45,713 nucleotides of DNA from a virus. The position numbers were made by a program, and so were the translations under genes. Location: the IMG/VR virus record IMGVR_UViG_3300037488_001445, positions 1 to 45,713 of that record; one strand, given 5' to 3'. Below, in pieces: positions 12,046 to 45,713 of the stretch. The notes beneath the pieces were generated by a model. The model was given only the letters and a program-made list of their open reading frames with translations. It searched no databases and was not told the DNA's origin. Every line of letters begins with the position of its first letter. Positions within the stretch are counted from its first letter, which is position 1.

Positions 12046-12072
12046 CCCTTCGCTTCCGTGGCCGTTACGACC

Positions 12073-14547: not shown

Positions 14548-14586
14548 CGTTCCCCATTCCGACAGGCGCAGGGCCACGCTGCCAGC

Positions 14587-17498: not shown

Positions 17499-17502
17499 GC
17501 TG

Positions 17503-19431
17503 ATGCGCCACCTCCTCCTCGTGCTCCTCGCCGCGTTCGCCGCGGCGCAGGAGTCTCTCGTCGTCGCCAACTACGCCACCCAGGCCCAGCGAGGCTGGGT
17601 GTTCGTGGCCACGCCCGAGGTCGCCAAGCACGCCACCGGCTGGCTCAAGACGGACGAGGGGCAGTTCTCGCCATACGTGCGCGAGACCGGTGGGGTGCGC
17701 GTCTGGACATCCCTGCCGGCCGGCGGCATGGCCAAGCTCTTGTGGATCGACAAGCCCCGCGAGTCCCCAGGCTTCGCGTGGCACCCGGTCGTCGAAGTGA
17801 ACGCGATGCGCTTGTTGCCCTACTGGACGCTCGGCGACGAGCGATCCCAGCCGGCGGCCCTGCGCGTCACCTACGCCAGCGATGCAGTCCTGCGCGTGCA
17901 CCTGCGCACCGTGTTCGCCACGCGTCGGGTCTCGATCGACTGCTGGCTGACCGTCACCAGTGGCGAGCCCAACATCGAGCTCGTGCAGTCGGCGACCTAC
18001 GGCGACACCCGCAACGATGGGCAGCCGCAGTCGGTGATCCTCCCCGAGCTCCGCACATGGTGCGACGGCGGCCGGATCGTCGACGACGAGTGGAGCCGCC
18101 ACGGTCTCGGCTTGGCTACCTGGACGCCTGGCGCGATCTGGTATCAGCCCACCGTGCTGGCCGGCACTCGATGGCATAGGTCCTCGAGATTCGTCCTTCG
18201 CGGCGCGATCATGGCCGCCAACGACCCTGCCCGCCTCGAGGGTCGCCCCCTGGTCGGCATGTCGCTCGGCTGGCAGGGCAAGTGGGGTCCCTTCGGTGTC
18301 GTGCCGGCCGCCAACACCGACATGCTGCAGCAGGTGGGCCGCCAGAAGCAGGCGTGGTTCGCGCGCCCCAACGGCTCCTACGCGCAGCTGCGGCCTGAGT
18401 GCCAGGGGTTCGCCTCGAGCACCGGCGAGAACCAGGGCTTCGGCTGGGCGTCGCACCATGCCGTCAGCACCGGCGAGCCGTGGCCGATCCTCGACCTGCT
18501 CTGGCAGGTGGAGGCGTATGCGATCAGGCCGACCGGCAACCGCGAGCCCGATGGCAGCCCCATGCAGGCGATCGCGCACCCGTCTGCCAGGACGATGAAC
18601 CAGAGGCCCGACCTGAACCTGGGTCCCTCTGACCGTCTCGGCTGGCCCGGCATCAACGGCATCGCCTGGATCCCGGCGCCGACCTCGGTCGCCTACGCCA
18701 CCGAAGACGACGAGCACCGGGCACCGGTCGAGCTCGCAGCTGCCGCGGCACTGACGCGCGATCCGCTGGTCGAGCAGATCATCGACGACCTGATCCAGTT
18801 GGACGCGACCGACGTCTACGTGCGCGAGCACCGCGTCCCTTCCGCCCGGTCGATCGGCCGCACTGCGCTCGCCTGTTCCTGGTGGGTCTGGCTTGGCCAC
18901 CGCGAGGCGGAGCCCATCCTGCGCGCTCGCCTCGACGATGCGCTCACGCTGCGCGCCGCGAGCTGGCAGGGCGCCCCGGTCGCCACGATCGGCCCGCCCG
19001 ACCAGGCGAAGTATGGGTGGTTCATCGGCGGCACCCAGACCCCGGTGATGGGCTGGCAGCCGTGGCAGCAGGTGATCGCCGCCGGCGGCCTGCGTGCAGC
19101 CGGGTTCGTGCTGAACGAGCAGCGCTACGTGCTCGCCGGCCAGGAGCTCGCCACCATGGTGCTCAACGAGGCATACAGGGTGCAGGCAGGCAAGTTGAAG
19201 CACGCCTACGCGATCGCCTACCAAGCAGGCCAACCGCTGGCCGATGACCGCTGGCCGATCACTGGCGACCTGCGCGAGATCTACAACGACTACGTCTACG
19301 CGATCCCCGACACGGACACCTGGACGGTCGGCGCCGCGCTGATCGCACCGACGCATCCTCGAGCCGAGGTCGTGCGTTCGTCGACGCCCATCCGCACGGG
19401 CATGAACGCTCGCTGGCGCGCTTTGCGCTGA
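17503..19431 (+). CDS. Exported-looking 642-residue protein of unknown function
   Basis: The first 16 residues (MRHLLLVLLAAFAAAQ) form a signal peptide with an Ala-x-Ala cut site. The next 300 or so residues look all-beta (many Val/Trp/Thr strands). Residues about 400-620 look helical, in a repeated pattern that could be an alpha/alpha barrel, with Trp-rich loops such as GWQPWQQVIAAGG. The two-part plan, beta sandwich plus helical toroid, is known from polysaccharide lyases and related enzymes, but I see no diagnostic catalytic motif and make no enzyme claim. A signal peptide is rare in the head-tail operon of a podophage. Start: ATG 17503 is preferred over an upstream in-frame start at 17488, because it begins exactly at the signal peptide and does not overlap the preceding gene. 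Confidence 0.65.
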   Translation: MRHLLLVLLAAFAAAQESLVVANYATQAQRGWVFVATPEVAKHATGWLKTDEGQFSPYVRETGGVRVWTSLPAGGMAKLLWIDKPRESPGFAWHPVVEVNAMRLLPYWTLGDERSQPAALRVTYASDAVLRVHLRTVFATRRVSIDCWLTVTSGEPNIELVQSATYGDTRNDGQPQSVILPELRTWCDGGRIVDDEWSRHGLGLATWTPGAIWYQPTVLAGTRWHRSSRFVLRGAIMAANDPARLEGRPLVGMSLGWQGKWGPFGVVPAANTDMLQQVGRQKQAWFARPNGSYAQLRPECQGFASSTGENQGFGWASHHAVSTGEPWPILDLLWQVEAYAIRPTGNREPDGSPMQAIAHPSARTMNQRPDLNLGPSDRLGWPGINGIAWIPAPTSVAYATEDDEHRAPVELAAAAALTRDPLVEQIIDDLIQLDATDVYVREHRVPSARSIGRTALACSWWVWLGHREAEPILRARLDDALTLRAASWQGAPVATIGPPDQAKYGWFIGGTQTPVMGWQPWQQVIAAGGLRAAGFVLNEQRYVLAGQELATMVLNEAYRVQAGKLKHAYAIAYQAGQPLADDRWPITGDLREIYNDYVYAIPDTDTWTVGAALIAPTHPRAEVVRSSTPIRTGMNARWRALR

Positions 19432-19443
19432 TAGGATCCCGCG

Positions 19444-19510
19444 CGCCTGGTTGTGCATGCCAGGCGTCGGAAGCGAAGTGCGCCGCCCTCGGCTCGTCGT
19501 CGAGGGTGGC
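19444..19510 (+). other. Two hairpins in the 133-base gap before the Bbp19-like gene
   Basis: The first hairpin is 19444-19450 with 19460-19466 (7 bp). The second is 19482-19491 with 19501-19510 (nine pairs and one G-T wobble). Neither has a T-run. They may weaken read-through from the exported-protein gene or stabilise the capsid-gene message that starts downstream. No other gene is seen in the gap. Confidence 0.45.
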
Positions 19511-19564
19511 ATTTACCGCGCCGCCCGTTCCTGAATCCGCCAGCCCCCGTGTGAGGCTGCAGGC

Positions 19565-22548: not shown

Positions 22549-22581
22549 GGCCGGCTCGTCGTGAGGCGTGCCGGCCGTTTT
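22549..22581 (+). terminator. Intrinsic terminator closing the head-gene block
   Basis: A perfect 7-bp GC stem (22549-22555 with 22570-22576) is followed directly by GTTTT. The next gene starts at 22595, only 13 bases later, so the terminator must be leaky or regulated for the tail genes to be made from the same promoter. This is one of the two most typical terminators in the window. Confidence 0.65.
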
Positions 22582-22594
22582 AACTTGGTGGACC

Positions 22595-29340: not shown

Positions 29341-30087
29341 ATGGGCGCACCTTTCGACTTCGGAATGATGCAGGAGCCGAACCACCCGGACGCGATGCCA
29401 CGCTCGCAGCCGGTGTTCGGTCCGGCTCCTGCCAGCGGATCGCGCTACCGGGACATCTGGGGGCCGCAGACGCAGAGCTCCCCCCTGTCGTCGATGCCAG
29501 CACCGACCGGGCAGTCCCCGTCGATGGTCGGCAGCGGCGCCGAGTCTGCTGGCACCATGGGCTCAGTCGGCAACGCCATGGCCGCGGCCGGGTTGGCGAT
29601 GAAGACGGTCGGCGCCTACTACGACGCGCTCGCCGCCCAGAACCAGATCGAGAGCCAGGCCTTGAACCTCGACATGCGCTCGCGGTTCGGGCTGATCAAC
29701 GCCCGCGCCGCCGAGGCCGATGCGACCTACATCATGCAGGCCGCCGCTCGACAAGCGCTCGGCATCGGCATGCGCCGCGCCGGCGAACGCGCCGACCTCG
29801 TCGCCTCGATCGGAGCTCGCGGCGGCTCGGCCGGCACCGGCAGCGCCGCCGAGGTGGTCGCCACCTACGACTACGGCACGCTTCTCGAGAAGTACACGCT
29901 CGACGCCAACGCGATCAGGCAGCGCGAGGCAGCGCGGCTGCAGGCAGTCAACCTGCGCGGCCAGGCGGACATGGATGCCGTCAACGCCGCGAACATGCGC
30001 CGCATGGGCAAGACCATCAACCCCTGGATCTCCGCTGGCACCGCCCTCATCGGTGGGTCCGGCCCCGTCATCCGCAACTGGCAATGA
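29341..30087 (+). CDS. Internal virion protein (T7 gp14-like position)
   Basis: 248 residues. The first 65 are Pro/Ser/Gly-rich and flexible. Residues about 70-95 are Gly/Ala-rich and could insert in a membrane. Residues 95-230 form long helices with the pattern of podophage core proteins: ALAAQNQIESQALNLDMRSR, then RRAGERADLVASIGARGG and TGSAAEVVATYDYGTLLEKY, ending with REAARLQAVNLRGQADMDAV. In T7, gp14 leaves the head first and forms a pore in the outer membrane. The position after the nozzle and before two larger core proteins matches the gp14-gp15-gp16 order. The stop overlaps the next start (ATGA). Confidence 0.7.
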   Translation: MGAPFDFGMMQEPNHPDAMPRSQPVFGPAPASGSRYRDIWGPQTQSSPLSSMPAPTGQSPSMVGSGAESAGTMGSVGNAMAAAGLAMKTVGAYYDALAAQNQIESQALNLDMRSRFGLINARAAEADATYIMQAAARQALGIGMRRAGERADLVASIGARGGSAGTGSAAEVVATYDYGTLLEKYTLDANAIRQREAARLQAVNLRGQADMDAVNAANMRRMGKTINPWISAGTALIGGSGPVIRNWQ

Positions 30088-32687
30088 TCCCCAACCCCGC
30101 AGCGCAGAGCATCCCGAACCTGCAAGGCCCGACCCCGCAGGCGCAGGCACCCATGGGCACGATCGGGCAGGACCCGCAGCGCGGCCAGATCTCCGAGGCG
30201 GGGGATGCCGTTGGCTACTCTGGTGCCAACCTGCAGGTCGAGTCCCGACGCAGGCAGTACGAGGCCGAGCGAATGCGGTTCGAGGCGGAGAGGCTGCAGG
30301 ACAAGCTGGACAACAGCGATGCCCGGTCCGGGCTGACCCAGTTGGGGTTCACCCAGTCGCAACTGCTCGTCGACCCCAATGACGGGTTCCTTTGGACCGC
30401 TGGCCGCAACGCGCTCGAGCGCCGGCCGCAGGTGCTCGGAGCCTTCGGCGAACGCATCCAGGCGATCGAGGGCCAACTGCAGACCCAACGGGCCAAGCAG
30501 GTGTTCCGCCAGGGAGCCGAGCTCCGGGCCTTGGAGCTGATGCAGCGCGTCGACGCGCACGCCGGCCGGGCGGCGAACGAGTTCGCGGACGAGGCCGACC
30601 AGAACGAACTCGACCAGGCATCTCAGGAGGCGATCGACGCCCACGGGCTGCCCGGCATCGACGGGGTGCTGAACAGCACCTACCGGGTGCGGAAGGACAT
30701 CGCGCTCGGCGCCTTCGACCGGCTGGCCGAACGCAAGGGGCTGCGGATGAGCGATCCGAACTACCGCTCCCTCCGCTTCGCTGTCACCGGCCGCATCGCC
30801 GCCGGCGTGGTCGATCGGCTCGCCGAGAAGGACCCGTTCGCGGCCCAGGACTACGTCGACAGCCTGCGCGATATCGATGTGTCGCCCGGCATGCGCGCCA
30901 AGATGCAGGAGAAGGTGACCGACCAAGGCGACCAGCGTCTCGGCGTCGTCGCCGCCGGCGAGATGCTGCGCCAGTTCAACGACCCCGACGTGGCCGCCGC
31001 CTCCCTGTTCCAAGCCTACAGTGCCCCAGGATCGCCGATCTCGGAGCGGACCTACAGCCGCGCCCAGAAGGAGATCGCCCAGCAGGCCGAGGGCGTGCGC
31101 CGCCAGAAGGCGGCTGCCGAGACCCAGGCGATGGAGATAGCGAAGCGCTGGCTGATCGGCAACCCCACGGCGGGCTGGGACGATCTGCCGGTCGAGTACA
31201 AGGGGCCGGTCGAGAAGTCGTTCCAGCGGGACAATCTCATCGAATGGCTCAAGGACGACAAGCGGGTGGCAACCAACCCGGCAGCCTACGCCGCGTTGCA
31301 GTCGATGCCGGACGCCTACTGGCGCAACGTGACCGACGAGGAGCTGCAGCGCGACTGGGCCGGCCAGATCGCACCCGAGGACATGAAGGGGGTGCGCGCG
31401 CAGTCGGCAGTCGCCAAGGGCTCGCAGGACCCTGGGGCGAAGGACGTCGTCGACGCAAAGGACCTGGACCGCATCGCCGCGTTCGACGGTCTGATCTTCG
31501 ACAACCCCGATCTCCCCAAGCAGCCGCCTGGCCAGGAGCTGATCTTCCTGAAGTTCCAGGCGCGGACCGACGAGCTGGTCAAGGTCTACGCCGACGAGAA
31601 GGACCCGAAGCGGCGCCGCGAACTGGCCCGGCAGGCCGCGCTGCGCGAGAAGGACTCCGCGGGCAACTTCGTCTGGAACAAGAAGCCCGAGGAGCGCGCC
31701 GCGGCCACGTTCGAAAGCGGCGGCGAGAACTTCGTCCCGGCCAATGTCGTGAAGGGCTCGACCTACAACGAGGTGCACGAAGCCTACGCCCAGATGGCCG
31801 AGGAGCAGGGCATCCCATCGGTCGCGAACCCAGCGCTGCGGCGCCTGTTCACCCTGCGCGAGCAACGAAACCAAGACCTCTTGCCTGGAGCCCTCCAGTC
31901 TGCCGTCGAGAAGCAGATGCGCGTGGCCATGGCCGGCAGCATAAACGAGTTCGACCTCGCGAAGCGCATCGTCGAGAACAAGGCGAAGCGAGCCGCCGAG
32001 CGCGAGGCCGATCGCCGGCTCTACCCCGGCACCGTCTCGTGGCTCACGCTGCAGCGACACGGGCTGATCAAGGACAGCCAGTCGGCCGAGGACGATATCA
32101 CCGCGGGCACGGTGCCCGCCTATGCCGACGACATCGTCACGCGGCATCGGCGGGATCGGGACCAGGGGGTGGCAGCCAGCAACTCAGGCGGGCTCTCACT
32201 CGCGGCTGGCAAGCGCATGGAAGAGCTCGCCGGCAAGACTGTCGGCCCGATCGTCCCCGGCCACTTCTCGGTGCCGCGTGTCGGCCAGACTGAGACGCAG
32301 TCGGTCGTGGGCATTATGAGTGCCAGGGAGCGCGACGAAGCCATCCAGCGGCTGGAGGCTCTCACCTTCTCGAAATACGACGACGTCGCCGCCCAGAACC
32401 TCGAGCGTGACCTGCAGCAGGTGCTGGCCAACGGTGGCCGCGACCACGACCCTGCGGTGCGCTTCCTGCGCGCGCGGACTGCGTTTGCAGCCAAGTCGGT
32501 GGTGCCTTCCAATCAGCAGCGCATCATCGCGGAGAGAGCATGGGAGGCGTGGCTGCAGGATGGTGGCGAGTACTGGGAGGAGTGGGAGCAAAGCGGCAAG
32601 CCCAAGGCGAGCATGCCACTGGAAGGCACCTGGGAGCAGCATGTGCAGTTCCGCGCCAAGGTCGCGCAGTGGGGCGTGGGCAAGTAA
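30084..32687 (+). CDS. Internal virion protein (T7 gp15-like position)
   Basis: 867 residues, highly charged and almost all helical, with Arg/Glu/Ala/Gln heptads (for example RRQYEAERMRFEAERLQDKL at about 52-71). A Pro/Gln-rich head of about 40 residues comes first. No enzyme motif was found. Proteins of this size and make-up between the gp14-like gene and the last large gene are core proteins that are sent into the cell and build the periplasmic part of the ejection channel. The call is by synteny and composition; sequence likeness to T7 gp15 is not visible. It ends 9 bases before the GTG of the giant gene. Confidence 0.65.
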   Translation: MIPNPAAQSIPNLQGPTPQAQAPMGTIGQDPQRGQISEAGDAVGYSGANLQVESRRRQYEAERMRFEAERLQDKLDNSDARSGLTQLGFTQSQLLVDPNDGFLWTAGRNALERRPQVLGAFGERIQAIEGQLQTQRAKQVFRQGAELRALELMQRVDAHAGRAANEFADEADQNELDQASQEAIDAHGLPGIDGVLNSTYRVRKDIALGAFDRLAERKGLRMSDPNYRSLRFAVTGRIAAGVVDRLAEKDPFAAQDYVDSLRDIDVSPGMRAKMQEKVTDQGDQRLGVVAAGEMLRQFNDPDVAAASLFQAYSAPGSPISERTYSRAQKEIAQQAEGVRRQKAAAETQAMEIAKRWLIGNPTAGWDDLPVEYKGPVEKSFQRDNLIEWLKDDKRVATNPAAYAALQSMPDAYWRNVTDEELQRDWAGQIAPEDMKGVRAQSAVAKGSQDPGAKDVVDAKDLDRIAAFDGLIFDNPDLPKQPPGQELIFLKFQARTDELVKVYADEKDPKRRRELARQAALREKDSAGNFVWNKKPEERAAATFESGGENFVPANVVKGSTYNEVHEAYAQMAEEQGIPSVANPALRRLFTLREQRNQDLLPGALQSAVEKQMRVAMAGSINEFDLAKRIVENKAKRAAEREADRRLYPGTVSWLTLQRHGLIKDSQSAEDDITAGTVPAYADDIVTRHRRDRDQGVAASNSGGLSLAAGKRMEELAGKTVGPIVPGHFSVPRVGQTETQSVVGIMSARERDEAIQRLEALTFSKYDDVAAQNLERDLQQVLANGGRDHDPAVRFLRARTAFAAKSVVPSNQQRIIAERAWEAWLQDGGEYWEEWEQSGKPKASMPLEGTWEQHVQFRAKVAQWGVGK

Positions 32688-32696: not shown

Positions 32697-35600
32697 GTGA
32701 TCGACGACTCGCTGCAGCCGCTCTCGCCAGAACCAACGCAGGACCCGCAACCGGTGGCAACGCCGGCACCGGCTGTGCCCTTGTGGGAGCAGGTCAAACA
32801 GGCGCACGCGCAGAAGGTGCAGGCCGAGTTCGACCGGCAGTTCAACCCGACCCCGAAGGACCTCGAGCAGAGCATGCTCGCGTCCGTCCGTGGCGCGGCG
32901 AGCCTCGACCCGACGCTGATCTCCACGATTCGCGAGTATGCGAAGGCGGCCGGCGTGTCGCCGATCGGTGCCGAGAACGACGTCGCGGTGCTCAAGTCGA
33001 TGGCGCGCGAGCGCCAACTCGTCGACCAGCAGGTGGCGCTGCGCAACCCGGCACTGGCGAAGTGGCTCAGCAACCAGGAGATGGCGGCGATCAGCGAGGA
33101 CGACGTCGACAACCTCGTCATCTGGGACAGCTGGTTCGCCAACGTCGGCCGCCAGCTGCGTTCCGGCGTTCGCCAGACGCAGCTCGGCTTCATGGGTGCC
33201 AGCATCGCCGCCTCCGAGACCGGCAAGCCGACCGCGAGGCAGGCGCGCGAGATCGCCGGCATGCAGCTCCAGATCGCCAAGGCGCAGGACGACGCCGGCT
33301 GGACCACGGCCATGTTCAATCCGGTGGGCCAGATGCTCGCCACGGTGCCCATCGCATCCGCCGCGGCATGGGCCGGTGCCCGCTCGACGGCAGCCTTCAC
33401 CAACCACCCGCACGCGATCGCCCTCGGCGGCACGATCGGCGGCGGCCTTGCCGTCTGGGGTTCGACCGCGGTCATCGAAGGCGGCAACCACTACCTCGAC
33501 CTGATCCGCCGCGGCATCGACCCGGCCAACGCCAGGAAGGTCGCCAGCTACTACGGCATCGCCGCCGGTGCGCTGGAGACCATCGGCGCCGGCATCGTCA
33601 CCCGACCCATGCGCGCCATGCTGCTGGCGCGCGCCGCCGAGAAGGCGGGGCAGATCCTGACCAAGCGCACCAAGGGACAAGCCCTGCGCCGCTCCGCCTA
33701 CGACTGGTTCGAAGGCGCCGCCGGCGAGGTCACGACCGAAGTGGCGCAGAAGATCGCCGAGAACCTGGCCACGGCGAGCGCCATCGGGATGCAGGGCCGG
33801 TCGTGGCAGGAGCTCACCAAGACCCCCGAGGATGCCGTCAAGTGGGGCGACGAACTGGGCGAGACCTTCGCCGCCACCCTCATGGCCATGGTGCCGCTGG
33901 GCGGCATCCTGCCCGGCGTGCGCGTGATGCACGACCTGCGCCAGTTGCGGCGCGCGTCGGGTGAACAATCCTTCATGCAGGGGATGCGCGACCGGCTGAA
34001 GGACCTGAAGACCCCAGGCAAGTCGCCCGATGGGTTCCACGACCTGCTGAAGGAGCAGGCGGCGAAGCTCGAGGCCGAAGGCGGCCCGACCACCGTGCAC
34101 GTCGACCGGCACGCCGCGACGCAGGTACTCAACCAAGCCGACGAGGTCGCGGACCAGAAGCAGGCCAAGGCGGCCGGCATGACCGCGGAGCAGCTGCGCG
34201 CCAGCCGTGCCGAGGGCACCCGCGGCGCCGCGTCGGAGGAGCTCGCCAAGGTGCTGCCCGAGGTGGCCGCGCAGCTGAACGACTCGAACGCGGCGACCGA
34301 CACCATCGAGATCCCGCTGCACCTATGGATCTCCAAGGTGATGGGCACGCCTCTCGAGGACGTGCTGCGGGATCACATCAAGCTCGACCCCAACGGGCAC
34401 ACCTACTTCGAATCGCAGGTCCTGGGCCGCCGCGTGTCTGCCGAACTGGCGACCATGCGCAAGACGGTCAAGGAGCAGGGCGCGGCAGCCGAGCAGTGGC
34501 AGGCCGAGGCGGACGAGATCGAGGCCGAACTTGCCAAGGCTCTCGTGGGCACGAAGGTGCACAAGCTCACCGGCCGCAACTCCGCCACGACGGCGCAGGT
34601 GGTCACGGCCATCGTGGTGAACCGGGCGAAACGGGCGAAGCAGACCCCGAAGCAGTTTTGGTCCACGCACGGGGTGCGCTACCTCTCGGAGCTGACCGAC
34701 CCCGATGGCGTGCGCGCAGCCCTGGACTCGGCGATGGGCCGCGGGCCGCGGCCGACCGCGCCGAGGCCGCCGGCACCGACGACCGAGATGGGCGGCGCCG
34801 ACCAGATCCGCATCGACGACGAGCCTGGCGCGCAGCCAGCACCGACCGAGGAGTCCGACCCCGATGCCGAGCCGGACGCGCCGGCGCCCCAGACCGATGC
34901 GCAGCCGGTGCCGATGGATTCGCTCCGCGGCGTGCTGCAGCACTACGAGACCGTGCTGGGCGACCCGCAGATGGCGGACACCGCGCTGCGCGTCCTCTCC
35001 GCCGCGGTCGGTCCCGAGGGCATCGCCGAGATCCGCGCCGGCCGCGACCCGGTCGGCACCACGCCAGAGTCCATCCGCGCACTGGTGCTGGCCATCGAGG
35101 ACGCCGGCATGCAGGAGCGCGATGCGCTCAACGAGGCCGAGCAGAACAGCGATGCGGTGTTCGACCAGACGGTCGAGTTCCTGCGCCGTTCGCCTGAAAG
35201 CCGCCGCCGCACGCTGGCGCGTCTTGGCCTGAAGCCGAAGCCCGACAACAAGCCGCACAGCACGCGCGAGGTGGCCGCCTTCCTGACCGCGCGGCAGCGG
35301 CAGAAGTATGGGGAGATCCCCGCCGACAAGGAGGGGCGCACCGACGAGCAGGCGAAGAAGATCGCCAACTGGATGGTGGCCGAGGTCGAATACGAGGCCG
35401 AGAGCCCGAACAGCGCGATCGGTTGGTACACGAAGAAGTTCCAGGCAGCGCTCAGCCGACTGTCGTCGGTGTTCCCCGAACTGCGCGAGAGCGCCGACGC
35501 ACGCGCCACGATCACTGCGCTGGTCGCGATCACCAGCGATGGGCTCGCTGTCGGGCCGAACTTCCTGTTCGCCGCGGAGCTGTACGAGAACTGGCGCCCA

Positions 35601-38600
35601 GGCGGCAAAACACCCGGCCGGTTCACCAGCATTCGCAAGCACAACCGGGTGGCTCCGCTCGCCACGCTGAAGCGCTTGGAGGCTCTCTACGCCGAGATGA
35701 CTCCGAGCCGAGCCCACGAGCTCCTGCTGCGCGAGGGCACGGTCAAAGAGCTGAAGGCCATGGCGAAGGCCGAGGGCTGGACGTTCAAGCCAGGAGCGGG
35801 CTACCTCGTCACGACGCGGCTGCCCTACAGCGCGATCGCGTTCGGGCCGAAGATCGGCGCCTTCTGGGCCAACCTCATGGGCTCCACCGGATACCTGACG
35901 ATGGACCGGTGGTGGTGCCGCACGTTCAACCGCTACCGCGGCGACATGGTGCTCTCGGTCGGCGACCAAGCGCTCGCGGCCTGGGCCGAACTGCTGGGGC
36001 GCAGCGACCTGTCGCGCGACCAGCTCATCAGCGAGACGGTGGTCTGGGAGGAGCGATTCGCTCAGCGCAACTGGAAGACCCAGCTGGCCGTCCTGGTCGG
36101 CAAGTCGGAGCCGGGCAAGAAGGGCGAAAAGGCCGAGTGGATGAAGAAGGCGAAGGAGCTCGCCGGCGCCCGCTTCGACGAACTGCTGCTTGAGCACAAG
36201 CGGGAACGCAAGGCGCACACCATCTGGAAGCTCGCGTTCCAGTCGCTGCGCGATGCGCCCGACAACGCGACCGACCGCGAGTTTATGATCCGCGCCGCCG
36301 CGTTCGCGCAGGCGAAGTTGAAGAAGCGGGGCACCACCCTGTCGATCGCGGACATCCAGGCGGCACTGTGGTATTTTGAGAAACGGCTATTCGCCACGGT
36401 TGGCGCCCGGCCGAAGTTCGGTATCTCCTACGAAGAGGCTGCAGAAAATGTCGTCACGGCTGCGCAACTCCCGGCCCGATCTGATGGACTCGCAGGGCTG
36501 GCCAGAATGGCAGCTGAAACTGCAGAACGGGTCGCCCGACTCCGAGCCGAAAAAGCTCGTCGAGCTGCTGCTAAAGATGGAGGCAGCGTCTACGTCGAAG
36601 GCGAAGAGCAGCTCCTCGCAGAGTCCGACGAGTCCGAGAACCTCAACCAATCCGACTTCGTCGAGCAGCACTTCCGCGTCGAGGACGTCCCCACAACCGG
36701 ATTCCCCGACCGAGGAGACATCCTCGACCAGTCCGTCGATGACATCCCCGGAGGCGTAGCACCGGGCCTCGAGGTCCTCATCGACTTCACCACCGACATC
36801 GACCTGGACGCGGTCGAGAAGGTGCGAATCGGACGCCGCACGATCAAGTCGCCGGCGGAAGCAGCGGAGGCCGCAGCGCACTTGGCGCTCTCCGCGCGCG
36901 AACAGATCCAGGGCATCGTCACCGACGACCAGGGCAAGGTAATGGGCATCGTCGGCGGATTCCGCGGCGGCCCGGTGAGCACGAACAACGATCCGACAGT
37001 GCTGCTCGACCTCGCGCTGATCAAGGGAGCCGCAAAGGTCTGGTGGGTGCACAACCACCCAAGCGACGACGAGACGTTGTCGAAGGCCGACCTAAAGTCG
37101 GCGGCAAGCCTGCACCGCATCCTGTCGGGGACGAACATCTTCTCGATGGGCATCATCGCCATTCGCGCCGCCGACAAGAACGGCGACCACGCGTGGCACT
37201 GGTCGAACAGCAGCAACACCGACCAGAATGGTGGCAGCACGCGCGTGAACAAGGGGCACACGGTGCCGTTCCTCGAGCGCGTCATTCGCAGCGTCGACAC
37301 GTCGCCGCGAATGCTCTTTGGCCAGGACGTCGACGACTTGCTGCGGGCGAGCAAGGCCAAGGGTCGCGACGGCATCCTGCTACTGGATCCCCAGAACCGC
37401 CCGCTCGGCTTCATCGGCATCGATGGCCAGGCGATGATGGAGCTGACGCAGCAGGGCCGGCAGCACACGCTAATGGCATGGCTTGGCCTGGCCTCGGCCT
37501 ACAGCGCGATCGTGGTGCGCAGCACCGGCACGGCCGCGGGCGCTGCGAACGTGGGCATGGCGCTGCTGACCTTCGGCATCCAACTGCAGGGGTTCCTTGA
37601 GTGGAGCCCCAAGTTTCAGGAATACATCAGGAGCACGCCGCAGGCACCGTCGAGCAACATCTTCTACCAGGAGGACATCGACTACCGCGGCCTGCACCGC
37701 GCGCCGATGCGCGACTACGGCGCACCGCTGCACGACCTGACGCAGATGTATCCCGACGACGTCTACGGACCGAAGGGGGCGCAGTTCTACGGCGGCGGCG
37801 GCATGGCCAAGGATCGCGCGCTCGACGAGAAGGCGATGGACCTGCTGCGCAGCCTGCGCGGCCAGCCCGACGCGCGCGTCACGGTCTACCGGGCGGTGCC
37901 GCTCGATGCGCCGTCCGCGATCAATGCCGGCGACTGGGTGACGATCACCGAGGCATACGCGAAGCAGCACGGCGAGAGCGCGCTCCGCGGCGAGTATCGC
38001 ATCGTGCAGCTTACCGTCGCCGCCGACGAACTGTTCACCGACGCGAACAGCCTGCACGAGCAGGGCTACGACCCGCGCCCCGAGGTGCTGTTCCAAGAGG
38101 ACACCGAGCCACCGGCGCCGCCGCGTAGGGACGACAGGCAGTTGTTCGCGATGAAGAACATCAACTACATGCCGGACCTCGTGGGAGAGCTGGGGTTCCT
38201 CGCGCCGTCGATCGGAGTCGCCAACATCAACAGCCCCTACACCGACTTCGGCAACGCCACGCTGATCGGCCCGTGGACGCTGGTGAACCCGCACACGACG
38301 CCCGTCTTCTCAGCGGACAGCTGGAGCGAGACGTTCGCCGGCTCGATCCGCACGCGGACCCAGGAGCTGAAGCTGAAGAAGGGCGGGGTCATCGGCACCT
38401 ACCTGGAAGGTCTCGCCGAGGAGATGGAGCGGGTGGCCGAGCATGACGGTCTGCTGCCGTCGATGGTGCGCCAGTGGATTATGAAGCCCTACGTGCCCGA
38501 CAACACGGTGACGCTGAGAATCCTGGGCAACATCCAGCAGGACCACCGCGAACTCGGTTTCGACACCAATGAAGCTCGAGCGTGGCTATCCCGCGCCGCG

Positions 38601-41600
38601 GAATGGCAGGCGACGCATAGCACGAAAATGCTGGTGGCGACGACGAGAAGCCCGCGCATCAGCGTCGACCACAACACTTCGACGTTCAACCAAGTGCTGC
38701 GGCGCATGGATGCTCTGGCGGAGGAGAACACCAGGGCACCGATCAGCAATGCGAACCGTGCGCTCCTGCACAACATCGTCCACAGCAACCTCGACCCACT
38801 GAGCGAGCTCGTCGCATGGGCTTGGGATCACCGCGAACTGTGGACGAATCCGCGCAACGGACAGGTCAAGTGGAGCAAGGAGCTCGAGGCGCATGCCAAG
38901 GAGGCCGGGTGGTGGGACCTGCCGATCCTGAAGCTCGCGCGCGAACTGTGGCTGCCGAATAATGGCAAGACGTTCGCACCCGTGTTTGACGGAGGGCAAT
39001 GGCTCGACCGGGACTACGGATGGCAGGAGTCGACGTCGGCGGCGATCGCGCTCGCGCAGGCAGTCCTGATGGTGGTGCATCACATGGATGTCGACGAGTT
39101 CACCAGGAGGCTCATCGGGGCACCGTTCGTGGATGTCGAGACCGGCCCCAATCTCGACGAGTGGGCCTATGCGATGCGTGTGGGACCGTGGTCGCTGATG
39201 ATGGTGCCCCCCAATGACAACCTGGGGAAGGTGGACCAAGCCAGCGAGGCCATACAGAAGCTGTTCGACAGCGAAGCGGTCCGCACCATCCGAGAGATCG
39301 ACGTCGCCAGAGGAGGTGCAGCGAAAGCCGACTGGCGCGAGGCGACTGCCGAGAACCTCGCCATCGCCATGGCGAAGGTGAAGCCGCGGACCGACCGCTC
39401 GCCGAGTTCGATCGGCGAACTGCGGGCGCACCTTGCCCAGCGCTTCGACACCTGGCAGCAGATGATGGAGCAGGGCAAGACGATTGTGTCGGGCCACGAG
39501 CACAGGGTCTCGCTGCAGGACCTCGAGTTCGCGCATGGCGACCTCCAGGCAGTCATGCGCGACGCCTACCAGAAGGAGCGCGACGATCGATTCAACGCGC
39601 AAGGCGTCGACTTCAAGGGTCCCGACCTGAACAAGACTCCGAGTGGCTTCAACACCACCGAGGACGAGGCGGCCTACCAGATCGCCGAGAAGGTGCTCTC
39701 GCAGTTGGCACCGCACGCACGCGAAGACGAGGCGGCCGTGCGCCGCATGCTGCTGCCGCTGACCGCGGAGCCAGGTGGTCGCATGCTGCCGCTAGTGCCG
39801 ACGTCGGGCCTGGACGTCATCGTGCCGAAGCTGATCGCCTTCGCGAAGGCCGCGCGCGAACACCGCGTGGACTACTTCGAAGCGAAGCCGCAGCGCGTGG
39901 TCGCGATCCGCGAGTTCACTGGCTACGTCACGCACGAGAAGGACAACGTGCCGCAGTGGGTGACCGACAACGGGCTGAACGTCTACAAGTATGGACCGCA
40001 GCACCCGACGCTGACCACGCAGCGCGAAGCGATCCAGGCGGCTGTGCAAGCCTTGGAGAACCAGGACCCCGGCTCGATCCTGTTCCAAGAGGAGGACGTC
40101 GCCGACCCCTACGCTCCTGGCGAGTTCGGCTTTTACTCAGCGCTGCGGCAGCACATCCTGCTCGCCGGCCGCGAGATGACCGCTGGCCAGTGGCTGCAGG
40201 AGTTGTCGATGCTCCGCAACCAGAACAAGCTGAAGCAGGGCGAGCTCGACTGGACGGGCATCGAGGACAAGCTCCTCGACATGAAGGAGCGCGACCCGTC
40301 GCGCAAGCTCTCGCCGCAGCACGTCGAGGCGATGGGCGACTTCCTGACGGTGGCAAGCGTGCACCACGGTCTTCGGCGCGACCCATCGGACCCGGCAAAC
40401 GAAGCGCTGAACCCGACGACCGTAGGTTGGACTCTGCGCACGGAGTACGAACGCGCGCAGGAGATGATCGACACGCTGCTCACGAACGATGACTGGTTTG
40501 CATTCGGGGTCGAGAATCATCTGTTCCTGAATCAGGAGGCTGCGGACCGGGTGCGGGACCTGATGGAGCAGATCCGCAACAGCCTCGACCGGGACCTGGG
40601 GGACGACTTCTTCGACGTCATCGAGATGGACCGGGAAATCTACGAGTACATCAGAGACAACTCCGACGACTGGAACGCGATCTCCCTCCAGCTGTCAGTC
40701 ATTGGCGAGGGCGGCGACCCCGACTTCTCCGCGACGGACAGACCAGCCGGCGACTCGGATGAAGCATCGGACTACCAGAGCGACGCCCCTCCAGGTCCCG
40801 CGACGGACCCGTGGGAGTTCTTGGTCAACTACGACGCCAAGGGTGCGAAGGTCTACCAGTCGTCGCACTGGGCCGATGCCAACGTCTTGGTGCACGTTCG
40901 CGGCGACAATCGCACGCTGGCCGATGGCACCGAGGCCATGGTCGTGCACGAGGTGCAGAGCGACTGGGCGCAGGGAGGCACGCGCGATGGGTTCGAAGGC
41001 GAACTCGCGACCGACGAACTACGCCTTGAACTGCTTGAGACGCTTTGGACGGAGCCGGCGCTGGGTAAGCCGAGCGTCATGGTGCCGGATCGCGGCCCGA
41101 ACCCGGCAGCCCGCCTGCTCACGGTCAAGAACGACGAGGAGCTGCAGGACTGGCTGAAGGAGGCCACGAAGCGCATCGAGGACTTGGACGAGGGTGGTCC
41201 CAACGAACTGCAGGATGGAGGGCCGCAGGTTGCGCTGGCTCTCGGCGACATCCGCGGTCTCGCCAAGATGCGCGCCAAGGACATGCAGAACGGGGAGTCG
41301 AAGGCGCAGCAGCGTCTCGAGCAACTCCGCGCCGAGCACGACAAGTTGCGCGACCGGGCACATGGCGGCGCCAGGGCACAGCGAGCACCGGATGGGCCGA
41401 TCGTCGGCAGCAACGCGGCGGCGATCGAGCTCGGAGTCAAGCGAGCGATCCAGGCCGCAGTCGGCGCGGGCGCGAAGCACCTTGCGCTGACGACGGGCCT
41501 GCTGCAGGACATCAAGAACAACGGTAACAACAACTCAGTGCTGCTGAATGTGGAGGTGCCGATCGCGCTGGTCGGCAACTCCCCGGACTACGACCAACCG

Positions 41601-44600
41601 TTGCCCGACGAGTTCAAGGTCCTGCTACCTGGGACGCAGGTCGTGCAGCCGTTGGAGACGTGGCTCGATAACCAAGGGGTGCCGCAGGAGGAGTGGCCTG
41701 CCGTGCGGGCGCAGGCGAAGAAGAAGTGGGATGAGCTGCGCAACGGCAAAGGCACCGCGGGCGAAGAGGCGAATCTCAAGCAGAACCTTCGGTTCCGGTT
41801 GCACGCCACGCTCGCGAACCCGATCGTGCAACGGGACAAGGACCGTGCAGTCACCTACGACAAGCTCGCGCGCAAGTCGTTCGACAAGTGGGCGAAGGCT
41901 CTCGGCGGCACCGTCGTCGAGCGCCCTCTGATCTACCAGGAAGCGACAGCAGGGAGGGTGGTCGAGAGACCCGAGATGACGACGGAGCAGCTCGTTAGCG
42001 AGTTGTCGAAGGCGCAGGCCGGACTCCAAGCGCTGCACCGGCTCACGCAGCAGGCAATCGCAGAAAGCACCAACCAGAGCGCACCCATGCCGGGGTCGGC
42101 CCAGTGGCTCCGAGAGGGCCAGACGGAGGCGGATCTCGAGGGACGCCTTGCCGGTTGGCTACAGAGCGACAATCCTGGGTCGGAATGGGACTGGAGGCAA
42201 TCCATCAGTCAGACCGAGCGGGTTGTGTTTAACCAGTACGACGGAATGCTGCGGGAGTTGGTCGTGGAAGCGATCGACAACAACGGCGGCGAGGTGTCGG
42301 CGATTGACCGCGAGCGATGGGGGCTCATGCCCGGCGACTTGCTCCTGGGACTGGAATCGCGGATCAGCCACGCCTCCAAGAAGTTCCCGGCCCTCCACCA
42401 AGCGCTCGTGGCGCGCAATGCCCTAAAGCTCACATTCGACCAGATGTTCATGCTGGGGTGGAGGCCGACGCAAACCGCGCGCAGCACGACGCCAGTCATC
42501 AAGGAACAGACGACGCCGGTGCCGGTGCTGGAGCTGACCCCGCAGGTGGAGGCGAACGTGCGCGCCGGCATGCCGCTCTGGTCGCGCGAAGGCACCCGAC
42601 GCGGTGCGTTCCTGCCTGAGCTGTTCCTCGTGCTGCTGTTCCGCGGCGCGAACCTCTCGACGATCCTGCACGAGATGTCGCACTGGTATCTCGTCGACCT
42701 GATGAAGACGGCGAAGTCGGGACAGGCGACGGCGGAAGAGCTCGCCGAGCTGAATGCGATCCTGGGCTGGATGGGCATCGGCAGCGTCGAAGAGTTCGAC
42801 GCGTTGCCGGCCGATCAGCGCACCGCACTGCACGAACAGTGGGCGTACATGTTCGAAGTGTTCCTCGCCGAAGGGCAGGCGCCGTCGTTGGCGCTGCAGG
42901 AGGCGTTCGGCTTCATCCGCCAGTGGATGGTGGACATCTACGGCGACACGGCCGAGAACCGGGCGCGCGTGTTCGAAGAGAAGTTCGGGCGGCCGATGCC
43001 GACGCTCGACCCGCAGGCGCGGCACTTCTTCCAGCGCATGATGGCTACCGACCAGGAGATCGCCGAGGCCGAGGCTGTGCGCGAACTGCTGCCGCAGTTC
43101 AGCACGCAGGCCGAGAGCGGCATGGATGATGCGCAGTGGGCGAACTACCAGCAGCAGTGGGCTGACGCGAAGGGCGAGGCCAAGCGGCGCCTCGACGCGG
43201 CTGCGTCCACGGAAGCGAAGCTGCTGGCCAACCTGCGCGCCAAGGTGGTCGGCGAGATCGACCGCACCGCGGCGCAGGTGCGGCAGAAGGTGGAGCGAGA
43301 CGTTCGCCAGCAACTGCTCAGCGACCCCTACTACAAGGCCCTTTCGTGGATGCTGTCGGGCCGTCTGAGCGACGACCCGAACGACGTCGGCAGCAAGGTA
43401 TCGTCGCACCAGATCGACATCGACGCGGCCGAGAAGATCCTCGGCCCGGCCGACTGGCAGTTGATGGTCCAGCGCTACGGCACCGGCGTCGGCACGCCGT
43501 TCGGCCGCAAGCATGGGTTCAAGCCGGACCAGTTGGCGGAGATGTTCGAAGTCGGCACGGGCGAGCAGTTGCTGCGCGAGATGCTTCGCCGGCCGACGCT
43601 CGAGCGTGCGATCCTCGACGAGACCAACGCGCGCATGCTGCGGGACCACAGTCAGTGGGAGAACCCCGACGAGCGCGAGGACCTGATCGCCGAGGCACTC
43701 CAGGGCGAGATGCGCGAGCGCATGTTCGCGCTCGAGGTCGTCACCATGGAGGAGGCGATGCGCCGCGCCGCGGACTCGACGCAGGGCGCCGGCCGCCTGC
43801 AGTCGCTCGCCGAACGCATGGCCGCCGACCTCGACGACCAGCTGGGCGCGGCGCGGAAGCGCGTTAAGGAGCTCGAGGACGGGCGACTGCAGACCGCGGA
43901 GGAGACCCGGCTGCGCGCCGAGCTCTTCGCGATCCGCACCGAACTGGCGCAGTTGCGGCAGGGCGAGACCACCGCGGAGTCCGACCAGCAGATGGCGAGG
44001 CTGACGGACCAGCGTCGGGTCCTTACCGAGCAGGTAAATGCTCTCCAGCCGCAGGAGCTCCAGACCGCAAGGCAGGAAGCCAGCGACCTGCTCGAGCGAG
44101 CGGAGGCTGCACGCCGGCTGGCACGCGAGCCGATGACCAGCGAGCGCATCGTGCAGGCCGCAGCCGCCGAGGCAGCGCGGCGCGTGGTCGACGAGACTCC
44201 GCTGCGCGATCTGCGGCGACTGCGCCGGAGGGCGGAGCAGGCTCTCGGCACCGCCGCCCGGCGTGGCCGCGAGGCAATCCGGCGAGGCGACATCGGCGAA
44301 GCGCTCGACGCGGCGCGCTCGAGGCTGCGGCACATGGCGATTGCGCGGCAGGCGATCGCTGCGATGCGCGAGGCCGAGCGTGGCGCCAAGATCGTGCGCA
44401 ACCTGTGGAAGCAGCGCGACGACGAGAAGACCGCGAAGAGGCGGGACGTCGACCTGGTCAACGCCGCGCGCGCGATCGCCGCGTTATTCGGCATGGGCAC
44501 GCCGGCGGCCAACCAGAAGGACTGGGTCGAGAACCTGCGCAAGTACAACCCGACCCGGTGGGCCGAGGTCGAGCCGTGGCTGCAGCGGGCCGAGCGGGCC

Positions 44601-45713
44601 GCGGCTGGGCTCACGCCGAACGCGCCGCGCGGGCTGGGCATGGCGACCGACTTCCGCGACCTGAGCCTCCGCGAACTGCGCGAGGTGTGGGACCAGATCG
44701 AGTCGCTCTGGGACCAGAGCCGCCGCGACCACCTGATCCGCGTGGGCGAGGAGATGCTCGCCTTCGACGTGGTCAAGGCCCGGCTGCTGGCGCCGCTGCA
44801 GGCGCAGATCGACAAGCACGCCGGCAGGCCGCCGCAGTTGGGCCAGGCGGACTGGCGCGTGCGCCTGAATCGGCACTTGTCGTCGCTGAAGGCATACCTG
44901 CGCCGCGTCGATCACTGGGCCGAGTCGGTCGGCCCGGCGTGGCAGAACATGGTCGTGCGCCCGATCCGCGAGGCTGTCACGAGCTACCGGCTGCAGGCAT
45001 CGGCAGAGGTCCGCACCTACCAGCTGGCACTCGAGCGAGTGGCGGCCACGATCACCCAGCCGCAGATGCTGGACTGGGTCATCGACACGACCGACGCCGC
45101 GGGCCAGCCGATGCAGCGCACCATGTGGCGGTTCGGCCGCGGCAACGGTGGCAACGGCATGCTCGAGGTGATCGGCGCCTTGTTGCACTGCGGCAACGAG
45201 TCGAACTACCGGAAGCTCTTGCTGGGCTACGGCTGGGCGGAGGAGACCGACGACGGGGTGCTCGACGACCGCGAGTTCCGCGAGTTCCTCGACGAACTGT
45301 GGCAGCAGGGCAAGCTCACCCGCGCGCACATGGACTTCGTCCAGGGTGTCTGGGACCAGTTGGAGAGGCTGAAGCCGGCGGCGCAGCACGCGCATCGCGA
45401 GGTCTTCGGCACCTACTTCAAGGAGGTCGAGGCTCGCGAGTTCGTCGGCGCGTGGGGTGTCATGCGTGGTGGCTACGTGCCGGCACGCATCGACCCGCTC
45501 TACGCCGACCCAGGCGCCCAGCGCTACGCGTCGATGGAGGAGCTCCGCCAGGACTTCCGTTCCTCGATGCCGGCGACTGCCAGCGGGTTCCGCCACGAGC
45601 GCGTCGAGGGCTACACGCGCAGGCTGAACCTGCAGCCGAGCATGATCGCGCGGCACATCGACGAGCAGATCCGATTCTCGGTCCTGCAGCCGACGATCCG
45701 CGACACGTTGCGC
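32697..45713 (+). CDS. Giant polyvalent virion protein, residues 1-4339 (continues at window start)
   Basis: The frame from GTG 32697 has no stop to the window end and goes on through the circular join to 1315, giving about 4,734 residues. Order: Pro-rich head (1-30); helices; Gly/Ala-rich hydrophobic stretch (~205-300), perhaps membrane-active; Pro/Ala/Asp linker (~682-740); a conserved-looking domain (~885-1160; NWMVAEVEYEAESPNSA, LPYSAIAFGP); JAMM/RadC-like domain (~1400-1510; His1452, His1454, Ser1462, Asp1465); ART-like domain (~1665-1798; Arg1732, GDWVT); GFLAPSIGV domain (~1815-2000); HEVQSDW domain (~2670-2960); zincin motif H3325-E-M-S-H3329 with Glu3387; coiled coils (~3700-3900); hydrophobic C-terminus. 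It has the place of T7 gp16 and the make-up of polyvalent proteins, so it is probably injected with the DNA to counter host defences. A lytic-transglycosylase motif was not found. Confidence 0.88.
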   Translation, partial: MIDDSLQPLSPEPTQDPQPVATPAPAVPLWEQVKQAHAQKVQAEFDRQFNPTPKDLEQSMLASVRGAASLDPTLISTIREYAKAAGVSPIGAENDVAVLKSMARERQLVDQQVALRNPALAKWLSNQEMAAISEDDVDNLVIWDSWFANVGRQLRSGVRQTQLGFMGASIAASETGKPTARQAREIAGMQLQIAKAQDDAGWTTAMFNPVGQMLATVPIASAAAWAGARSTAAFTNHPHAIALGGTIGGGLAVWGSTAVIEGGNHYLDLIRRGIDPANARKVASYYGIAAGALETIGAGIVTRPMRAMLLARAAEKAGQILTKRTKGQALRRSAYDWFEGAAGEVTTEVAQKIAENLATASAIGMQGRSWQELTKTPEDAVKWGDELGETFAATLMAMVPLGGILPGVRVMHDLRQLRRASGEQSFMQGMRDRLKDLKTPGKSPDGFHDLLKEQAAKLEAEGGPTTVHVDRHAATQVLNQADEVADQKQAKAAGMTAEQLRASRAEGTRGAASEELAKVLPEVAAQLNDSNAATDTIEIPLHLWISKVMGTPLEDVLRDHIKLDPNGHTYFESQVLGRRVSAELATMRKTVKEQGAAAEQWQAEADEIEAELAKALVGTKVHKLTGRNSATTAQVVTAIVVNRAKRAKQTPKQFWSTHGVRYLSELTDPDGVRAALDSAMGRGPRPTAPRPPAPTTEMGGADQIRIDDEPGAQPAPTEESDPDAEPDAPAPQTDAQPVPMDSLRGVLQHYETVLGDPQMADTALRVLSAAVGPEGIAEIRAGRDPVGTTPESIRALVLAIEDAGMQERDALNEAEQNSDAVFDQTVEFLRRSPESRRRTLARLGLKPKPDNKPHSTREVAAFLTARQRQKYGEIPADKEGRTDEQAKKIANWMVAEVEYEAESPNSAIGWYTKKFQAALSRLSSVFPELRESADARATITALVAITSDGLAVGPNFLFAAELYENWRPGGKTPGRFTSIRKHNRVAPLATLKRLEALYAEMTPSRAHELLLREGTVKELKAMAKAEGWTFKPGAGYLVTTRLPYSAIAFGPKIGAFWANLMGSTGYLTMDRWWCRTFNRYRGDMVLSVGDQALAAWAELLGRSDLSRDQLISETVVWEERFAQRNWKTQLAVLVGKSEPGKKGEKAEWMKKAKELAGARFDELLLEHKRERKAHTIWKLAFQSLRDAPDNATDREFMIRAAAFAQAKLKKRGTTLSIADIQAALWYFEKRLFATVGARPKFGISYEEAAENVVTAAQLPARSDGLAGLARMAAETAERVARLRAEKARRAAAKDGGSVYVEGEEQLLAESDESENLNQSDFVEQHFRVEDVPTTGFPDRGDILDQSVDDIPGGVAPGLEVLIDFTTDIDLDAVEKVRIGRRTIKSPAEAAEAAAHLALSAREQIQGIVTDDQGKVMGIVGGFRGGPVSTNNDPTVLLDLALIKGAAKVWWVHNHPSDDETLSKADLKSAASLHRILSGTNIFSMGIIAIRAADKNGDHAWHWSNSSNTDQNGGSTRVNKGHTVPFLERVIRSVDTSPRMLFGQDVDDLLRASKAKGRDGILLLDPQNRPLGFIGIDGQAMMELTQQGRQHTLMAWLGLASAYSAIVVRSTGTAAGAANVGMALLTFGIQLQGFLEWSPKFQEYIRSTPQAPSSNIFYQEDIDYRGLHRAPMRDYGAPLHDLTQMYPDDVYGPKGAQFYGGGGMAKDRALDEKAMDLLRSLRGQPDARVTVYRAVPLDAPSAINAGDWVTITEAYAKQHGESALRGEYRIVQLTVAADELFTDANSLHEQGYDPRPEVLFQEDTEPPAPPRRDDRQLFAMKNINYMPDLVGELGFLAPSIGVANINSPYTDFGNATLIGPWTLVNPHTTPVFSADSWSETFAGSIRTRTQELKLKKGGVIGTYLEGLAEEMERVAEHDGLLPSMVRQWIMKPYVPDNTVTLRILGNIQQDHRELGFDTNEARAWLSRAAEWQATHSTKMLVATTRSPRISVDHNTSTFNQVLRRMDALAEENTRAPISNANRALLHNIVHSNLDPLSELVAWAWDHRELWTNPRNGQVKWSKELEAHAKEAGWWDLPILKLARELWLPNNGKTFAPVFDGGQWLDRDYGWQESTSAAIALAQAVLMVVHHMDVDEFTRRLIGAPFVDVETGPNLDEWAYAMRVGPWSLMMVPPNDNLGKVDQASEAIQKLFDSEAVRTIREIDVARGGAAKADWREATAENLAIAMAKVKPRTDRSPSSIGELRAHLAQRFDTWQQMMEQGKTIVSGHEHRVSLQDLEFAHGDLQAVMRDAYQKERDDRFNAQGVDFKGPDLNKTPSGFNTTEDEAAYQIAEKVLSQLAPHAREDEAAVRRMLLPLTAEPGGRMLPLVPTSGLDVIVPKLIAFAKAAREHRVDYFEAKPQRVVAIREFTGYVTHEKDNVPQWVTDNGLNVYKYGPQHPTLTTQREAIQAAVQALENQDPGSILFQEEDVADPYAPGEFGFYSALRQHILLAGREMTAGQWLQELSMLRNQNKLKQGELDWTGIEDKLLDMKERDPSRKLSPQHVEAMGDFLTVASVHHGLRRDPSDPANEALNPTTVGWTLRTEYERAQEMIDTLLTNDDWFAFGVENHLFLNQEAADRVRDLMEQIRNSLDRDLGDDFFDVIEMDREIYEYIRDNSDDWNAISLQLSVIGEGGDPDFSATDRPAGDSDEASDYQSDAPPGPATDPWEFLVNYDAKGAKVYQSSHWADANVLVHVRGDNRTLADGTEAMVVHEVQSDWAQGGTRDGFEGELATDELRLELLETLWTEPALGKPSVMVPDRGPNPAARLLTVKNDEELQDWLKEATKRIEDLDEGGPNELQDGGPQVALALGDIRGLAKMRAKDMQNGESKAQQRLEQLRAEHDKLRDRAHGGARAQRAPDGPIVGSNAAAIELGVKRAIQAAVGAGAKHLALTTGLLQDIKNNGNNNSVLLNVEVPIALVGNSPDYDQPLPDEFKVLLPGTQVVQPLETWLDNQGVPQEEWPAVRAQAKKKWDELRNGKGTAGEEANLKQNLRFRLHATLANPIVQRDKDRAVTYDKLARKSFDKWAKALGGTVVERPLIYQEATAGRVVERPEMTTEQLVSELSKAQAGLQALHRLTQQAIAESTNQSAPMPGSAQWLREGQTEADLEGRLAGWLQSDNPGSEWDWRQSISQTERVVFNQYDGMLRELVVEAIDNNGGEVSAIDRERWGLMPGDLLLGLESRISHASKKFPALHQALVARNALKLTFDQMFMLGWRPTQTARSTTPVIKEQTTPVPVLELTPQVEANVRAGMPLWSREGTRRGAFLPELFLVLLFRGANLSTILHEMSHWYLVDLMKTAKSGQATAEELAELNAILGWMGIGSVEEFDALPADQRTALHEQWAYMFEVFLAEGQAPSLALQEAFGFIRQWMVDIYGDTAENRARVFEEKFGRPMPTLDPQARHFFQRMMATDQEIAEAEAVRELLPQFSTQAESGMDDAQWANYQQQWADAKGEAKRRLDAAASTEAKLLANLRAKVVGEIDRTAAQVRQKVERDVRQQLLSDPYYKALSWMLSGRLSDDPNDVGSKVSSHQIDIDAAEKILGPADWQLMVQRYGTGVGTPFGRKHGFKPDQLAEMFEVGTGEQLLREMLRRPTLERAILDETNARMLRDHSQWENPDEREDLIAEALQGEMRERMFALEVVTMEEAMRRAADSTQGAGRLQSLAERMAADLDDQLGAARKRVKELEDGRLQTAEETRLRAELFAIRTELAQLRQGETTAESDQQMARLTDQRRVLTEQVNALQPQELQTARQEASDLLERAEAARRLAREPMTSERIVQAAAAEAARRVVDETPLRDLRRLRRRAEQALGTAARRGREAIRRGDIGEALDAARSRLRHMAIARQAIAAMREAERGAKIVRNLWKQRDDEKTAKRRDVDLVNAARAIAALFGMGTPAANQKDWVENLRKYNPTRWAEVEPWLQRAERAAAGLTPNAPRGLGMATDFRDLSLRELREVWDQIESLWDQSRRDHLIRVGEEMLAFDVVKARLLAPLQAQIDKHAGRPPQLGQADWRVRLNRHLSSLKAYLRRVDHWAESVGPAWQNMVVRPIREAVTSYRLQASAEVRTYQLALERVAATITQPQMLDWVIDTTDAAGQPMQRTMWRFGRGNGGNGMLEVIGALLHCGNESNYRKLLLGYGWAEETDDGVLDDREFREFLDELWQQGKLTRAHMDFVQGVWDQLERLKPAAQHAHREVFGTYFKEVEAREFVGAWGVMRGGYVPARIDPLYADPGAQRYASMEELRQDFRSSMPATASGFRHERVEGYTRRLNLQPSMIARHIDEQIRFSVLQPTIRDTLR
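45587..45713. repeat. Terminal direct repeat, right copy (circular overlap)
   Basis: This is the exact second copy of bases 1-127. The codon frame of the giant gene ends on base 45713 and resumes at base 128, which shows that joining the two copies restores one uninterrupted gene. Confidence 0.93.

Follow-up and report, generated by a model that had tools for sequence, protein, structure and literature searches.

What kind of protein takes up about a third of a small viral genome? The question is raised by a 45,713-base stretch of virus DNA (the window), both ends of which share an exact overlap of 127 bases. Joined once over this overlap, the window gives a circle of 45,586 bp in which a single stop-free frame on the plus strand (as are all features of the giant protein and its cassette given below) runs from a GTG at nt 32,697 to nt 45,713 (codons 1–4339), continues over the join and reaches its stop codon at nt 1,315. 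The segment nt 2–1,315, of which bases 1–127 repeat the window end, specifies residues 4298–4734 plus the stop and matches PHROG 9880 (E = 1.6e-62). The frame opens just three codons ahead of the GTG, and the next in-frame start is the GTG at nt 32,754. A preliminary description of this DNA claimed that the overlap keeps the frame, and recomputation returned the same values: a product of 4,734 aa encoded by 14,205 nt, or 31.2% of the circle. Stops in random frames would occur at about 0.023 per codon at the base composition of the window, giving a probability of around 1e-48 for 4,734 codons without one. GC3 is 0.83–0.94 and GC2 0.38–0.55 in every segment of the protein, and this continuous combination of high GC3 and low GC2 is the pattern of a single coding frame from end to end.

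The join depends on the 127-base overlap, which looks like an assembler k-mer and not a biological repeat, so an artefact of assembly or circularisation could have fused two genes. Against this, four relatives (L014, L015, L002 and L003) align without a break over residues ~3900–4727 (BLASTP, 30–35% identity), spanning the join at residues 4339/4340, evidence for the circle that does not depend on the assembly. Relatives also carry the N-terminal and C-terminal cores in a single ORF. An artefact is extremely improbable, and the protein of ~4,734 residues, described earlier as split by the window ends, is confirmed.

The giant protein belongs to the family of Bbp10 of Bordetella phage BPP-1 (PHROG 9880). 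Its N-terminus and C-terminal part match PHROG 9880 (two profile matches, E = 3e-152 and, for the segment nt 2–1,315, 1.6e-62), and BLASTP matches many relatives. Known members include Bbp10 (2,052 aa) and the proteins of DC33 (3,125 aa), ctQRb9 (3,209 aa), ctEw122 (2,792 aa), Ab9 (2,839 aa), Carin1 (2,854 aa) and JessA (2,039 aa), and gp16 of OANV1 (2,986 aa) has been reported as Bbp10-like (PMC9239159). Relatives of the C-terminal part are encoded by at least 551 IMG/VR stretches. The head-tail connector gene of the window also matches the BPP-1-like phage group (33–36%), and the neighbourhood is common to the family: capsid, tail tubular, internal protein, endolysin-type, giant and fibre genes. 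Within it, the giant gene is the last and largest of three genes that form an ejection-type cassette, with tail-fibre-type genes after it, which bears out the earlier placement at the gene position of T7 gp16. The two upstream cassette genes specify an internal-virion-protein-like product (nt 29,341–30,087, 248 aa; PHROG 418, E = 2e-4) and an endolysin/transglycosylase-like product (nt 30,084–32,687, 867 aa; PHROG 1044, E = 1e-5). The gene immediately after the giant (nt 1,574–3,505) returned no family match. Exact-peptide scans with the endolysin-type gene, the terminase and the late payload detected no close sister phages, and a host search in bacterial genomes found just three distant MAG fragments. 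Among the relatives, Limnohabitans phage DC33 (L014, PQ492659.1) is filed under Inoviridae in its record, although it has the gene set of a BPP-1-like tailed phage. Two Bbp10-type proteins (L016, nt 7,691–13,849; L021, nt 9,610–15,729) bear annotations as beta/gamma crystallin-motif or lysis proteins.

Comparison of 64 complete proteins, the window protein included and with lengths taken stop to stop, revealed a fixed layout: an N-terminal core (N-core) of ~550 aa, a slot of variable content, and a C-terminal part of ~1,300 aa made up of an HExxH zincin domain followed by helices. The N-core is present in 63 of the 64, and the stretch from the zincin domain onwards measures 1,282–1,340 aa (interquartile range). 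In the window protein, the N-core (aa 40–600, nt 32,814–34,496), conserved in 62 of the 63 complete relatives, includes a candidate LPD22 domain (PF18834; aa 79–152, nt 32,931–33,152) that scores just below the Pfam cut-off (E = 2e-6; 28.4 against 28.6 bits) and is clear in relatives L052 and L126 (Pfam). A Gly/Ala-rich hydrophobic stretch (aa ~205–262, nt 33,309–33,482) lies where the virion RNA polymerase (vRNAP) of phage N4 has predicted membrane helices (PMC12633501). The zincin-like domain (aa 3302–3480, nt 42,600–43,136) carries HEMSH at nt 42,669–42,683 and the second motif HEQWAYMFE; HExxH is invariant in all 16 aligned sequences and at least 90% conserved in a set of 57, across which the second motif never varies at E79 and E86. 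It is followed by a long region (aa 3481–3900, nt 43,137–44,396) predicted to be helical (AlphaFold2, pLDDT 80) and by the C-core (aa 3901–4339, nt 44,397–45,713, continuing to aa 4734 at nt 128–1,312), where conservation across the family is highest. The window protein thus shares with Bbp10 a homologous C-terminal part with zincin, the N-core, the cassette position and a nearly or fully cysteine-free composition, but its slot is 2,702 aa long; that of BPP-1 has 241 aa, and the longest relative found, L047 (truncated at its 3' end), reaches 2,081 aa.

The slot starts with a Pro/Asp/Glu-rich linker (aa 601–740, nt 34,497–34,916). The clearest payload domain is of the RadC/JAB type (domain D; aa 1383–1481, nt 36,843–37,139; PF04002, E = 1e-9, 38.6 bits against a cut-off of 22.1), and its HxHPS...SxxD motif is intact, as HNHPS...SKAD (HNHPSDDETLSKAD). 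Upstream of it lies domain C (aa ~871–1290, nt 35,307–36,566), which is DUF7178-related, occurs in about 34 relatives with 23 columns unchanged throughout, GPKxG and TxDxW among them, and is modelled as all-alpha (pLDDT 76). Its invariant K1052 and D1070 are 18 residues apart, a spacing equal to that of the Nth-type sequence compared, and the PDB match that ranks first in probability and TM-score among those listed is a DNA glycosylase (7ou3), yet at E = 0.83. A gap-free alignment with Nth was not significant (P = 0.4), and the HhH-GPD Pfam model PF00730 did not match. An HhH-GPD DNA glycosylase fold is possible for domain C, as a lead rather than a result. Domain F (aa 1658–1795, nt 37,668–38,081) was recognised by a profile match to PHROG 2579, a mobile phage domain that stands alone or within other architectures in unrelated phages. 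In those other phages (L101–L131), the domain is likewise nearly free of cysteine (one in 3,461 aa), perhaps a sign that the proteins carrying it are ejected. An assignment of this domain as an ADP-ribosyltransferase-type (ART) domain was discarded, the profile comparison being not significant (P = 0.1).

Further along the slot, domain G (aa ~1810–2450, nt 38,124–40,046) has weak matches to proteins of Cobetia phage Carin1 and Acinetobacter phage Ab9, segment H (aa ~2455–2700, nt 40,059–40,796) has a match in L047, domain I (aa ~2701–3090, nt 40,797–41,966), with the motif HEVQSDW, occurs in eight relatives, and segment J (aa ~3091–3295, nt 41,967–42,581) returned no match. Defence-system models also gave none, and ART-PolyVal, the commonest payload among relatives, is absent from the giant. 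The joint presence of RadC, PHROG 2579 and domains C and I was seen in no other examined member. Since most payload segments lack a recognised family, the case for payload activity is built on RadC and on analogy with the relatives.

Among the 64 complete members, the shortest slot has 87 aa, the longest 2,702 aa and the median lies near 864 aa; the slots of L040 and L041 were wrongly measured as short. The window protein has both the longest slot and the greatest total length, so the extreme size proposed for it stands within its own family. The next longest, L047, has at least 3,883 aa (its 3' end is cut) and is followed by L013 (3,506 aa, stop to stop); the loci carry at most 10 kb of upstream flank, and longer members could therefore have been lost. 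The load of enzyme-like cargo domains in the window looks like the largest and most mixed seen in the family. The earlier yardstick, 3.6 times the length of T7 gp16, is not retained: the family already spans 2,000–3,500 aa, and the proper measure is a slot of 2,702 aa against the median of ~864 aa.

Slot contents turn over within the family. Pfam searches of 51 slots of relatives found ART-PolyVal in 29, and also DUF7178, PBECR RNases, GNAT, C5 methylase and SAM lyase domains. On a tree of the C-terminal part (FastTree), where the window protein sits on a long branch of unsure exact placement, the ART domain changed 11 times, domain C eight times, domain I five times and possession of a slot longer than 600 aa nine times. 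The most direct case is a pair of loci, L056 (nt 5,531–10,018) and L093 (nt 6,356–10,018), with C-terminal parts that are 90% identical and slot edges that are 97% and 94% identical. Their middles (~1,104 and ~829 aa) are unrelated, DNA agreeing with protein, and the ART domain is present in L093 and absent from L056. This is a natural payload swap between near-identical flanks; the N-cores of the two share 46% identity, so the payload is not the sole exchanged tract. In the window protein, payload GC3 (0.83–0.88, PHROG 2579 excepted) is lower than that of the chassis ends (0.93–0.94), in line with separate histories.

The giant protein excludes cysteine. It contains two in 4,734 aa, whereas the composition of the remaining genome predicts 57.5 (Poisson P = 2e-22), and the products of both upstream cassette genes have none. 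The same holds across 98 relatives (15 cysteines in 229,378 aa), and in seven relatives cassette residues contain 12 in 25,950 compared with 273 in 31,661 elsewhere. Known ejection-type proteins are alike in this respect: T7 gp15 and gp16, P22 gp7, gp16 and gp20, N4 gp50, gp51 and gp52, and ten further vRNAPs (11 N4-like vRNAPs in all) have no cysteine. The lack of cysteine in vRNAP, and its likely connection with passage through tail and periplasm, have been published (PMC3715699, PMC2784036, PMC5795418), and the lack and has been used for guessing a vRNAP (PMC10747016); an extension of the signature to the payload-bearing Bbp10/PHROG 9880 family was not found in the literature searched. Composition of this kind, together with the cassette position, indirectly supports packaging and ejection of the giant protein but does not prove them.

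The preliminary description regarded the giant as T7 gp16 grown by added domains. In both phages the genes of a small and a middle internal protein precede that of the large protein and a tail-fibre gene follows; both large proteins lack or nearly lack cysteine, and T7 gp16 is known to be ejected. However, gp16 is 1,318 aa long, lacks a payload slot and has no detectable homology to the giant (hhalign P = 0.96; hmmsearch scores no higher than those of reversed decoys), and profile searches gave no signal for gp15 either. No transglycosylase domain was found in the giant chain (Pfam, PHROGs, NCBIfam), and the endolysin-type match falls in another gene, at nt 30,084–32,687. Descent from gp16 is therefore very unlikely, and the likeness of the N-core to the N-terminus of N4 vRNAP is better supported. 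An N-core profile matches N4 vRNAP residues 134–452 at E = 2.5e-7 (hmmsearch), above all 3,300 block shuffles, with a reciprocal match in L052 (E = 4e-6) and profile–profile P-values of 4e-5 to 5e-8 against the N4 N-terminal region. Two other vRNAPs match more weakly at the same place; in the shuffle test of 11 vRNAPs, N4 alone is clear and the others are marginal. The evidence for this resemblance, drawn from sequence profiles, is of moderate strength.

N4 vRNAP (gp50, Schitoviridae) is like the giant in other ways: it too is the third gene of an ejection cassette, is without cysteine and has an HExxH domain followed by a helical C-terminus. They differ in that the middle of the N4 protein is an RNA polymerase and its C-terminal region is not alignable with the Bbp10 family. 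Profile comparison showed no sequence relation between the two C-terminal regions, the C-terminal part had no fold match in the PDB, and none of the vRNAP Pfam models matched the giant, while N4 itself matches four. Iyer et al. (PMC5512222) cite the N-terminal 998 aa of N4 vRNAP for injection and the C-terminal 1,400 aa for encapsidation, and report that searches with its N-terminal region retrieved N4-related phages and prophages only. Tentatively, and with somewhat more against the idea than for it, Bbp10-type giants and N4 vRNAP could be two versions of one podophage delivery chassis with an interchangeable payload bay, holding a polymerase in N4 and effector enzymes in the giants, with payloads exchanged by recombination at the edges of the bay and cysteine kept out of the cargo for its passage.

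The giant also resembles the polyvalent proteins described by Iyer et al. (2017, PMC5512222), as previously suggested. A domain search, one of the checks proposed, recovered PHROG 9880, RadC, PHROG 2579 and the zincin motif, with LPD22 just under its cut-off, and by these assignments the chain combines several functionally unrelated domains in a late-gene context, as polyvalent proteins do. Large late-gene proteins mixing unrelated domains, LPD22 and zincin-like peptidases all figure in the relevant sections of that work. The giant differs in that RadC is listed there among the domains confined to polyvalent proteins of conjugative elements, whereas here it sits in a phage chassis, and in that a fixed chassis-and-slot layout was not found in those sections.

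The giant is thus probably an ejected polyvalent virion protein, a delivery chassis built around a payload slot. The frame, the family, the arrangement of chassis and slot, the turnover of payloads, the exclusion of cysteine and the conservation of the zincin motif are established here; packaging, ejection, zincin cleavage and all payload activities are inferred. The C-terminal ~1,430 aa (zincin and helices) probably direct the protein into the head, the role that the C-terminal 1,400 aa have in N4 vRNAP, and on entry the N-core with its Gly-rich hydrophobic stretch would probably engage the envelope. The protein would exit unfolded through the tail, accompanied by both upstream ejection proteins, a route that may account for the avoidance of cysteine in all three. 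The zincin domain, as its motif and its position at the border of payload and C-terminal part suggest, may cut the chain and free the payload. Once in the cytoplasm, the payload domains (RadC/JAB, the possible DNA glycosylase-like domain, PHROG 2579, the HEVQSDW domain and others) would be active during the first minutes of infection, their probable targets being nucleic acids, nucleotides or host defence. Of these steps, packaging at the start and early action at the end lean on reasoning from N4 and from polyvalent proteins.

A purely structural ejectosome or channel protein, with the long middle as scaffold or spacer and no enzymatic payload delivered, would agree with the gene position and the helical C-terminal part, and the members with slots below 100 aa (L006, L012, L061 and L087) indicate that the chassis can exist without payload. 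This reading is nevertheless unlikely, as many members carry recognisable enzyme domains in their slots, RadC in the window protein retains its motif, and the wholesale slot swap between near-identical chassis is as expected of cargo and not of a spacer. That the protein is a lysin, a cell-wall enzyme, is barely credible; record annotations and PMC9239159 label Bbp10-like proteins as lysis-related, but the giant has no cell-wall hydrolase domain (Pfam, PHROGs, NCBIfam), and the endolysin-type match belongs to the neighbouring gene, as the record note for bbp11 likewise has it.

The preferred reading, an ejected chassis with a payload slot, turns the vague notion of a giant polyvalent protein into a testable device with fixed delivering ends and a reloadable bay, and makes absence of cysteine a sequence signature that flags ejected proteins. 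Should the ends suffice for delivery, they would constitute a natural phage carrier of large proteins into bacteria, and the bays of the relatives would amount to a collection of weapons used against host defence in the first minutes of infection.

Other parts of the window genome also deserve mention. Two genes within one short region, encoding a C5 cytosine DNA methylase and a PAPS-reductase-like protein (nt 6,358–8,088 and 9,511–10,659), are possibly a DNA-modification pair. A tandem repeat (nt 11,158–11,470; 168 bases, 1.9 copies) lies within a tail-fibre gene. At nt 17,485–19,512, long frames overlap on both strands (675 aa on the minus and 647 aa on the plus strand), the plus-strand frame being without a family match. 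Among the tail genes, nt 22,568–25,357 encode a 929-aa protein with a galactose-oxidase-like Early set domain.
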